From Acidimicrobiales bacterium (GTDB lineage: Bacteria > Actinomycetota > Acidimicrobiia > Acidimicrobiales > Aldehydirespiratoraceae), in contig JAQWLJ010000059.1 in the NCBI GenBank assembly GCA_029247365.1, forward strand, positions 1 through 51,128: 51,128 nt of DNA, given 5' to 3'. A program made the translations under genes and the position numbers. Below the pieces are notes generated by a model, which saw only the letters and a program-made list of their open reading frames with translations, was not told the DNA's origin and made no database searches. Numbering within the stretch: the stretch's first letter is position 1; every line of letters begins with the position of its first letter. Of this stretch, positions 40,908-46,038 are shown in pieces.

Positions 40908-41642
40908 ATGACCGGACTAGAGATTGTCGTCGTTGGCGTCGCTGCGCTGGTTACCGCTGCCCTCACCACCGTTGCCGGCGCGGGCGGTGGGATGATCCTG
41001 CTGATCGTGATGCTGCAGTTCGTCGATCCGCTTGTCGCTATCCCAGCGCACGGCGTCATCCAGCTTTTCAGCAACGGGACTCGGGCCGTAACCCTGCGCC
41101 GAGACGTCGACTGGCGTTTGATCGTTCCGTTCGTCGTTCCGCTGCTTCCGGCGACGGCGATCGGCTATCTCATCGCCGAATCGATCCCGCGTTCCAGTGG
41201 ACGGGCGGTCATCGGGCTCTTTGCTCTCCTCGCCGTCTGGTGGCCAGCCGCCACCGCATGGCTCGCGCCCAAGCCGGGGCGGGGTTCGCGTTTCGGAATC
41301 GTGGGTGCCGTCGCTGGACTGCTCAATCCGACCATCGGGGCCGTTGGGCCAGTGTTGGCGCCGGCATTTCGTGCGGCCACCGCGGATCACGTGAGCATGG
41401 TCGCCACCGCTGCGGTTGCCCAGGCACTCGGCCATGTCACCAAGGTCACGGCATTCGCAATCGTCGGCTATGCGTGGTCCGACCACCTCGCCATGATGAT
41501 CGTCGGCACAGTGGGGGTGGTCGTTGGGACGAGGGCGGGTGCCCACTGGCTCCGTCGCCTCGATGCGGTGAAGCTGACCTGGCTGTTCAGGGTGGCCGTG
41601 AGCGCCGGCGCGGCCCGCCTGTTGAGCGCGTGGGCATGGTGA
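40908..41642 (+). CDS. TauE/SafE-family membrane permease
   Basis: A 244-residue membrane protein with about seven or eight hydrophobic segments. The first repeat GVAALVTAALTTVAGAGGGM and the loop HGVIQLFSNGTRAV are typical of sulfite/organosulfonate exporters of the TauE family. A role in exporting sulfite or an organic anion is inferred from the family only. The ATG follows the -10-poor sequence ACAACCA; no ribosome-binding site was found. It is divergent from valS. Confidence 0.85.
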   Translation: MTGLEIVVVGVAALVTAALTTVAGAGGGMILLIVMLQFVDPLVAIPAHGVIQLFSNGTRAVTLRRDVDWRLIVPFVVPLLPATAIGYLIAESIPRSSGRAVIGLFALLAVWWPAATAWLAPKPGRGSRFGIVGAVAGLLNPTIGAVGPVLAPAFRAATADHVSMVATAAVAQALGHVTKVTAFAIVGYAWSDHLAMMIVGTVGVVVGTRAGAHWLRRLDAVKLTWLFRVAVSAGAARLLSAWAW

Positions 41643-44053: not shown

Positions 44054-45199
44054 CTAGCGGCCGAGTACGAGTTCGGCGGCTGCGGCTCCCCAGGCATCGG
44101 AGCCCTTCGCGCCTTGCCCGTTGCCGGCGACCGCAACGATCAGTCCTGATTCGACCGCTTCGATCAACGGAAAACGATCGGGCGTGTAGCTCACGATGCA
44201 CGGCTTCGTCCGCAGCGATAGGAACTCGACGTCGGGCCAGAGCGACTTGAGCGCTGGCTGAAGCAGTGGCAGGTAGTCCGGGTCGGTGTTTGATCGGAAC
44301 CACCGCTGGATCTCGGCCAGCTCGGTGGGCCAGGTGTCGAACGTCGAGTTGGCACCGAGCTTGATGCAGTACCGCCCGTCGGGGAACTGCAGCGGCGGCG
44401 TCATGTAGATGTCATCGATCCCGTCGGGGTCGATCTGATGAAGGACGGTCGGGTAGTTACTGAGCTCGACAGCATCGGCTTGCGACACTTCGCCGAGGAT
44501 GATGATTTCGGTCTTGACCGTGGTGTTGACCGGTCTGGGCATCACATCGAGGGCGTTGACGAACGCGCCGGTGGCAACCACGACTTGCTCGGCGTCGTAG
44601 GTCGAGCCTCCGAACGTTTCGATCTGGTAGCCCCCGCCGGTTCGGGGCTTCAGGGTGGTTGCGACGTCGTCGACGAGCTGTCCTCCGGCACGCTGGGTCA
44701 GCACTTCCTGGGCGGCGATCAGCCGCTTTGGGCGGATATAACCGGCTGGCGCCGGGTCGAGCGCAACCTCATGCGTTGTCGGGAAGTCGATTCGCGGCCA
44801 CCACTGCTTCCAGCCGACGTCGCCGGGCGACCAGTAGTTTTCGGGCTGGCCGTGGTCGCGCAGGAACGCCATCGAAACACCGTGCTTGCCGTCGAGTTCG
44901 GGTCGGGAAGCGAAGAGTGCCCCGACGGGCCGGTAGAACCCGATCCCGCTCCGTTCCTCGATCGACCGGTATGCGTCGACGGCCCGAGCGGTGAATGGGG
45001 CCCACCGTTCGTCCCGGTCGAGCCGGCGGGTCAGTCGGGCTTCGTCATCGTGGCTCGAGTAAATGCCAGCATCGCCGCCGGGGGCGGTAGGTCCGATCGC
45101 GACGATCGAACAGCCGGCCTCGGCGAGGTGGCGGGCTGCTGCCGAGCCGAACAGCCCGCGTCCGATCACGGCGACGTCGAAGGTGTCTACGGTGCTCAC
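44054..45199 (-). CDS. FAD-dependent oxidoreductase, DAO/sarcosine oxidase family
   Basis: A 381-residue flavoprotein. The dinucleotide loop is VAVIGRGLFGSAAARHLAEAG, the second fold element is VVVATGAFVNAL, and the C-terminal VAVAGNGQGAKGSDAWGAAAA closes the FAD site. It is related to monomeric sarcosine oxidase and N-methyltryptophan oxidase, which oxidise secondary or tertiary amines with release of peroxide. Its GTG start overlaps the stop of the selenocysteine sulfurtransferase as GTGA, so it is translated only if ribosomes read through the UGA at 45322 or reinitiate. Confidence 0.9.
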   Translation of the reverse strand: MSTVDTFDVAVIGRGLFGSAAARHLAEAGCSIVAIGPTAPGGDAGIYSSHDDEARLTRRLDRDERWAPFTARAVDAYRSIEERSGIGFYRPVGALFASRPELDGKHGVSMAFLRDHGQPENYWSPGDVGWKQWWPRIDFPTTHEVALDPAPAGYIRPKRLIAAQEVLTQRAGGQLVDDVATTLKPRTGGGYQIETFGGSTYDAEQVVVATGAFVNALDVMPRPVNTTVKTEIIILGEVSQADAVELSNYPTVLHQIDPDGIDDIYMTPPLQFPDGRYCIKLGANSTFDTWPTELAEIQRWFRSNTDPDYLPLLQPALKSLWPDVEFLSLRTKPCIVSYTPDRFPLIEAVESGLIVAVAGNGQGAKGSDAWGAAAAELVLGR

Positions 45200-46038
45200 G
45201 TGACCAGTGGTGCCTCTGGGTCGCGGACCCACTCCTGCAGACTTGCGATGTAGACGGCAGGGTCGCGATAGCCGAGACGGATCATGGTGAAGACGTCGAC
45301 CGACGCTGCGATGCCGCCGCCTCAATAGGCGACGACCCGGGCTTCGTGGCGCTCTGGGAAGTGATGGCGAACGTCGTTGAGGGGCCGGAACCGCCCGGTG
45401 TCCTGATCGATCAGACCGGCGGCGGACACGTTGATTGCGCTCGGAATGTGGCCGGGCCGACCGTAGGGGGCGACCTCGCCGGCAAAAACCGGTGCTGGAA
45501 GCGCGTCGATCAGGCAGGTTGCTCCGTCGGCCATGGCCGTCATGACCTCGTCCTTGTCGGCGACGAGGCGGGGCCGCAGCGAAACCGTCAGTGATCCCGT
45601 GCTGTCGGCGCCGTCGGTGTCGCCGGCCTCGGTTGGACGGCCCTCATCGCGCCACGCTCGCATGCCTCCATCGAGGATTGCGGCGTTGTCGAATCCCAGC
45701 CACCGGAGCATGAACCAGACCCGCGCCGCCCACATCGACCCGTTGTCGTCATAGAGCACGACCCGCGAACCGTCATTCACTCCGAGCCGCTCGAAGGCGG
45801 CGGCCAGGTCGTCGGGTGCCGGCAGGGCGAATCGATTGTGTGAGTCGACGTCGCAGAGGTCACCGGTGAGATCGCCGAACCGGGCACCCGGGATGTGGGC
45901 CTCGACGAACGCTGCCCGCCCGCTCTCGGACTCGTACCCGTTCGGCCCCATCGTCAGGTACACGGTCGCGTCGATGACGACCAGGTCGCCGCCTCCGAGT
46001 TCGCCAGCCAGCCATTCACTCGTCACCAAGAGATCCAT
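45196..46038 (-). CDS. Rhodanese/3-mercaptopyruvate sulfurtransferase selenoprotein, in-frame TGA at 45322-45324
   Basis: Read through TGA, this is a 280-residue tandem-rhodanese sulfurtransferase with selenocysteine at position 239. In E. coli SseA (281 residues) the catalytic Cys is at 238. The first domain holds VIDATVYLTM, AHIPGARFGDL and VVLYDDNGSMWAARVWFMLR. The second holds PGHIPSAINVS and the active loop VVAY-U-GGGIAAS, where Cys is expected as the first residue of CGGGI. After the TGA come VDVFTMIRLGYRDPAVYIAS and LQEWVRDPEAP, the normal end of this family. The start ATG lies 6 bases after TACTGT. The enzyme moves a sulfur (or selenium) atom from a donor to a thiol. A caller would wrongly end it at 45322. 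Confidence 0.9.
45293..45306 (-). promoter_or_regulatory. Candidate bacterial SECIS hairpin of the sulfurtransferase gene
   Basis: GCGUC-GGUC-GACGU: a 5-base-pair stem with a GGUC tetraloop, the loop starting 20 bases after the UGA. The GGUC loop is the one bound by SelB in E. coli fdhF mRNA, where it starts 18 bases after the UGA. The pairing was done by eye. Confidence 0.6.

Follow-up and report, generated by a model that had tools for sequence, protein, structure and literature searches.

Does an in-frame TGA at the place of the catalytic cysteine end a rhodanese prematurely, or does it encode selenocysteine (Sec)? This question is raised by a locus in a 51,128-nt stretch of DNA (the window), which is contig 59 of a 98%-complete draft genome of 3.11 Mb from a bacterium of the order Acidimicrobiales. 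The features under discussion, all on the minus strand, are the following:

45196..46038 (-), CDS of a predicted Sec-containing tandem-domain rhodanese (COG2897/SseA-like), 280 residues with U239, stop codon TGA at 45196-45198
45322..45324 (-), predicted Sec codon 239, an in-frame TGA at the catalytic-Cys position, located by frame reading and alignments
45293..45306 (-), predicted SECIS hairpin of the bacterial type, GCGUC-GGUC-GACG(C/U), whose apical loop GGUC (45298-45301) lies 20 nt after the TGA
44054..45199 (-), FAD-dependent oxidoreductase (DAO family), downstream, its start overlapping the rhodanese stop as GTGA

The rhodanese gene starts with ATG at position 46038, and the TGA at 45322-45324 is the sole interruption of its 280 codons (45199-46038), in the context RVVAY-TGA-GGGIAASVDVF. 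After it, 41 further codons follow in unchanged frame up to the stop codon, with which the GTG start of the next gene (45199-45197) overlaps. In the gene product, the Pfam rhodanese domain PF00581 was found in two stretches (1.3e-23), and of the PDB entries E. coli SseA (1urh, 5e-29) matches the sequence best; in that alignment, the Cys of CGSGVTA falls on codon 239. Pfam and structure matches together give two rhodanese domains with the catalytic residue in the second, and it is on these matches that the assignment to the tandem rhodaneses (COG2897) is based. An initial annotation of this DNA had pointed to a single TGA exactly where the catalytic cysteine belongs and to a frame that stays open for 41 codons up to the GTGA overlap; the frame reading agrees on both counts, and the 1urh alignment on the first.

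At two of 11 loci compared, those of the congeners G042 and G043, the FAD oxidoreductase adjoins the rhodanese locus; at the other nine, several of which are short contigs, it does not, and an operon partnership is not claimed. A gene of the TauE/SafE family (sulfite exporter) at 40908-41642 on the plus strand lies about 3.5 kb from the rhodanese; a link through sulfur is possible.

Related genomes were searched for the same codon. TGA forms occur in 2 of 51 genomes of the family and in 5 of 298 and 7 of 397 genomes of the order, these sets being overlapping and each including the source genome. Altogether, seven distinct genomes carry this TGA in this gene, one per species, with conservation in at least two species as the threshold applied. 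Such recurrence is more than chance. In G042, from the same genus, the gene is 80% identical and likewise has TGA at this codon; in the set of 298 genomes the TGA forms are those of the source genome, G185, G216, G126 and G066, the last four being 59-65% identical. A DNA pattern derived from six Sec genes gave seven matches in the 397 order genomes, each with 0 mismatches where two were allowed, and the reversed pattern as a control gave none in the same genomes. The seventh gene, found by this pattern in G1008, is an orthologue of 283 residues with TGA at codon 240. No further TGA form was seen among the 17 genomes with a match in a sample of the class (395 genomes, E <= 1e-60) or among the three with a match in a sample of the phylum (396 genomes, E <= 1e-50), and the match from G014 (E 9.7e-4), which the family search flagged for an internal TGA, is weak, covers part of the gene and does not extend to codon 239. 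All nine nearest non-TGA orthologues that were read (G223, G282, G263, G235, G198, G089, G168, G106, G067; 50-60% identical to the window protein) have TGC at this codon. The closest of them, at 58-60% identity, include those of G282 and G263, two genomes that also have tRNA-Sec and SelA. The comparison of this column proposed in the initial annotation has thus separated TGA in seven genomes from TGC in nine of nine other orthologues. A sequencing error at 45322-45324 was rejected, since TGA stands at this codon in seven genomes. In one further orthologue (L067, from G247), the frame changes between residues 1-227 and residues 234-280, owing to a frameshift or an assembly error.

A stretch of 13 bases, GCGTCGGTCGACG, lies 15 bases downstream of the TGA and is invariant in the seven Sec genes, silent positions included, whereas it is missing from the nine TGC orthologues. 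Codons +6 to +9 downstream of the UGA read GCG TCG GTC GAC in all six Sec genes compared, although three of these codons have four- or six-fold degeneracy; in the nine Cys genes they vary and encode Ser/Ala, Ser/Ala and Asp/Thr/Ser in place of Ser-Val-Asp. Over the whole gene, 108 columns of the six Sec genes are invariant in amino acid and degenerate, 11 of them with one codon. Without the UGA column and codons +6 to +9, one codon is kept in 6 of 103 columns, and in six Cys orthologues in 13 of 96 such columns, with a longest run of two. At a rate of 6/103, four one-codon columns in a row have a probability of about 1e-5, assuming independence and a place chosen beforehand.

The stretch folds as CGUC-GGUC-GACG with the loop GGUC, and the same hairpin is given by the RNAalifold consensus. 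It is formed by a 63-nt stretch of the window gene and is absent from the optimum fold of its 49-nt UGA stretch, for which another fold is preferred. None of the z-scores for folding of the 49-nt UGA regions stands out: those of six Sec genes range from +0.98 to -1.14 and those of three Cys genes from +0.06 to +1.17. RNAalifold reports no pair changed on both sides; with a pair 18-33 added, which is unpaired in three of the six genes, one covarying pair results and is matched by 147 of 500 shuffles. A scan of the window at the Rfam gathering cut-offs gave no match. The case for the predicted hairpin is accordingly one of primary-sequence constraint and not of folding energy. Its position just after the UGA and its small apical loop containing G, the invariant GGUC, are those sought in a bacterial SECIS element. 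The E. coli K-12 fdhF element has the same apical loop GGUC at 18 nt after the UGA, compared with 20 nt here, but its stem sequence is different, and the hairpin described here has a weaker lower stem and is without covariation support. The GTC codon of Val247 supplies part of the GGUC loop, and Ser or Ala stands at this position in 9 of 9 Cys orthologues, which suggests that the putative RNA signal fixes an amino acid.

Regarding the machinery, the initial annotation had proposed a search of the genome for tRNA-Sec, SelA, SelB and SelD, and all four were detected above their cut-offs, in support of the Sec reading. The tRNA-Sec model matched nine times at E <= 0.001; a single match exceeds the Rfam cut-off (64 vs 47 bits) and is called independently by ARAGORN as tRNA-SeC with anticodon TCA. 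SelA (374.5, cut-off 267.9) and SelB (289.3, cut-off 242.25) adjoin each other on contig 51, and SelD (359.6, cut-off 125) is located on contig 4. Among 14 control genomes, the cut-offs were passed by tRNA-Sec in five, SelA in one, SelB in two and SelD in two. The selD gene of the source genome (L018, G000 contig 4, 70200-71126) itself has one in-frame TGA in the (U)GCK motif; with SelD, which is of a well-known family, at least two selenoproteins are thus predicted for this cell.

tRNA-Sec is present in nine of nine genomes of the genus. It was detected in 5 of 6 Sec-form genomes, as was SelA; neither was found in G216, a UGA-gene genome that is 83% complete and in about 520 contigs. The other genomes of the same test gave tRNA-Sec in 18 of 23 and SelA in 21 of 23 (one, G119, below the cut-off). 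G119 (L071, partial) was counted among these 23 solely because no stop was reported within its match. With similar frequencies in the Sec-form genomes and the others tested, the machinery is a necessary background that permits the Sec reading without singling it out.

Selection was compared on both sides of the UGA. Between the source genome and G042, dN/dS values are 0.131/0.765 over the 238 codons before the UGA and 0.075/0.552 over the 41 codons after it; across the eight Sec-Sec pairs for which it was calculated, the ratio lies between 0.09 and 0.34 both before and after the UGA. Judged from these ratios, the codons after the TGA are under purifying selection.

The gene tree comprises 53 rows from 56 hand-chosen loci, with a root for drawing only. 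A motif filter removed three loci that have Cys (L113, CGIGAMA; L115, CGAGIAA; L021, CGHGVAA), the loci L035, L037-L039, L048-L051, L071, L020 (same contig as L057), L123, L124 and L128 stand outside the tree, and the frame-broken L067 is included, on a branch of great length. All six Sec rows group in a single clade (support 100/98) among Cys forms, to which three Cys rows, from two of the families also represented in it, attach next (99/97). The Cys/Sec label requires one change on this tree, for which a single switch from Cys to Sec would be the simplest reading. Families f17 and f28 and genera g26 and g80 each hold both Sec and Cys rows, and transfer between lineages or paralogy is therefore likely. 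In the congener G043 (L109, 6207-6580), the syntenic rhodanese is reduced to two fragments (residues 1-69 and 145-191); the catalytic end is gone and tRNA-Sec is kept, so that the Sec gene is dispensable there.

Two readings would deprive the gene of its Sec. A nonsense mutation would make it a pseudogene, or leave a functional truncation of 238 residues ending at the TGA, and remnants of the gene do exist, as the two fragments at the syntenic place in G043 illustrate. A chance mutation of this kind, which the initial annotation had already thought unexpected, is highly improbable given that seven genomes share the TGA at the same codon with the rest of the frame intact. Moreover, the 41-48 codons after the TGA are open and under purifying selection in the six genes tested, silent sites of the hairpin are fixed, and a product of 238 residues would be without the active-site loop. 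Still less probable is a decoding of UGA as something other than Sec, be it as Cys, as Trp or through general suppression. Nothing specific speaks for it apart from the Cys that homologues have at this place, and it conflicts with the tRNA-Sec of anticodon TCA, with SelA, SelB and SelD including the UGA in the latter, and with a hairpin that has an fdhF-type loop. Furthermore, the rhodanese gene and its orthologues in G066 and G1008 terminate at TGA, and UGA is therefore not a general sense codon. We are highly confident in predicting that the gene encodes a selenoprotein sulfurtransferase with Sec inserted at UGA codon 239.

Concerning the function of this predicted selenoprotein, a structure model computed with Cys for Sec shows a rhodanese fold (pLDDT 93, pTM 0.92). 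Its best structural matches, which extend over almost the whole model, are human MST, E. coli SseA and bovine and mycobacterial TST. The label 3-mercaptopyruvate sulfurtransferase was rejected: the product scores 136.7 bits with the NCBIfam MST equivalog PRK11493 (cut-off 250), and it has UGGG for CGSG and DAL for DAR/DSR, that is, it is without the Ser of CGSG and the Arg of DAR/DSR, which we take to be MST active-site residues. The nine Cys orthologues likewise have Gly at the serine place and Leu or Met at the arginine place. With the score below the MST cut-off and both residues replaced, the subfamily probably prefers a donor other than 3-mercaptopyruvate; thiosulfate or persulfides seem more likely, although this is a guess. 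The positions that separate six Sec from nine Cys forms include E83, R230, E232 and V247. The last of these is explained by the predicted RNA loop. Arg230 and Glu232 (45343-45351, minus strand) are fixed in the six Sec forms, whereas the nine Cys forms have Asp in place of the former and differ among themselves at position 232; both residues precede the Sec strand, and the hairpin, being downstream, does not explain them. Another rhodanese, a distant one with Cys, is encoded on contig 47 of the same genome (38% identity), and sulfur transfer as such need therefore not depend on the Sec rhodanese gene.

The rhodanese scaffold might also carry a Sec protein whose real role is redox chemistry, such as peroxide or arsenate reduction, or selenium delivery. 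A passage in a review places nearly all selenoproteins of known function in antioxidant defence, and such a role would suit the absence of the MST Arg (DAL here) and Ser (Gly here) and a Cys175 that all 15 aligned sequences share. These features are also found in the aligned Cys orthologues and hence are not tied to Sec, and both the fold and the position of the active-site loop are those of sulfurtransferases. We consider a redox or selenium-delivering role possible but doubtful. That Sec239 would hold selenium as an enzyme-bound diselenide or perselenide and hand it on to the cell's own SelD, itself predicted to contain Sec, appears improbable; if true, Sec would have been adopted because the enzyme handles selenium, and a selenoprotein would feed selenoprotein synthesis in a closed loop.

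The product is very probably a sulfur-handling enzyme whose catalytic Cys is replaced by Sec, as far as can be judged from sequence. In the proposed mechanism, SelB with Sec-tRNA(Sec) would recognise the GGUC-loop hairpin just 3' of the UGA, resulting in the insertion of Sec. Sec239 belongs to the loop UGGGIAA in the second, C-terminal rhodanese domain. Its selenolate would attack a sulfane-sulfur donor, leaving the enzyme as a selenosulfide (Se-S), from which the sulfur would be passed to a thiol acceptor or to thioredoxin.

Rhodaneses with Sec have been predicted before. A Sargasso Sea study of 2005 counted the COG2897 rhodanese with Sec, represented by three sequences with a predicted SECIS, among 15 new families (PMC1088965), and the GOS study of 2008 gave eight Sec sequences under cd01449 and one under COG2897 (PMC2398784). 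Review tables dating from 2022 and 2026 list a Sec rhodanese in the part headed 'Predicted' (PMC9312934) and a 'rhodanese-like form 4' with the motif UxxG (PMC13188914). The main text of the deep-Sep paper does not mention rhodanese. Among the literature matches listed, no title describes a purified Sec rhodanese, which is weak evidence of absence, and a literature search joining selenocysteine or selenoprotein with Acidimicrobi- found no paper. Because Sec-COG2897 rhodaneses were reported in 2005 and 2008, the novelty implied by the initial annotation was overstated, and the gene is a well-supported new example of an already predicted group and not a new kind. What is new is an actinobacterial clade resolved to genomes, a switch that apparently happened once and a valine that the RNA signal appears to impose. 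Such a clade provides a clean natural experiment with one Cys/Sec switch and near Cys orthologues at hand, and matched Sec/Cys pairs could measure what selenium buys a sulfurtransferase.

In comparison with known systems, the product resembles E. coli SseA (1urh) as a two-domain rhodanese of similar length with an aligned catalytic residue, and differs from it in Sec for Cys, UGGG for CGSG and DAL for DAR. With the published Sec-COG2897 form, as far as it is described in the sources, it shares the COG, the predicted replacement of Cys by Sec, a UxxG motif that is fitted by UGGG and a SECIS predicted downstream. The sequences of 2005 and 2008, with which the comparison is by description only, derive from marine metagenomes, whereas the present form comes from known host genomes with their machinery, seven in all within a single actinobacterial order, and its switch has been located on a tree.
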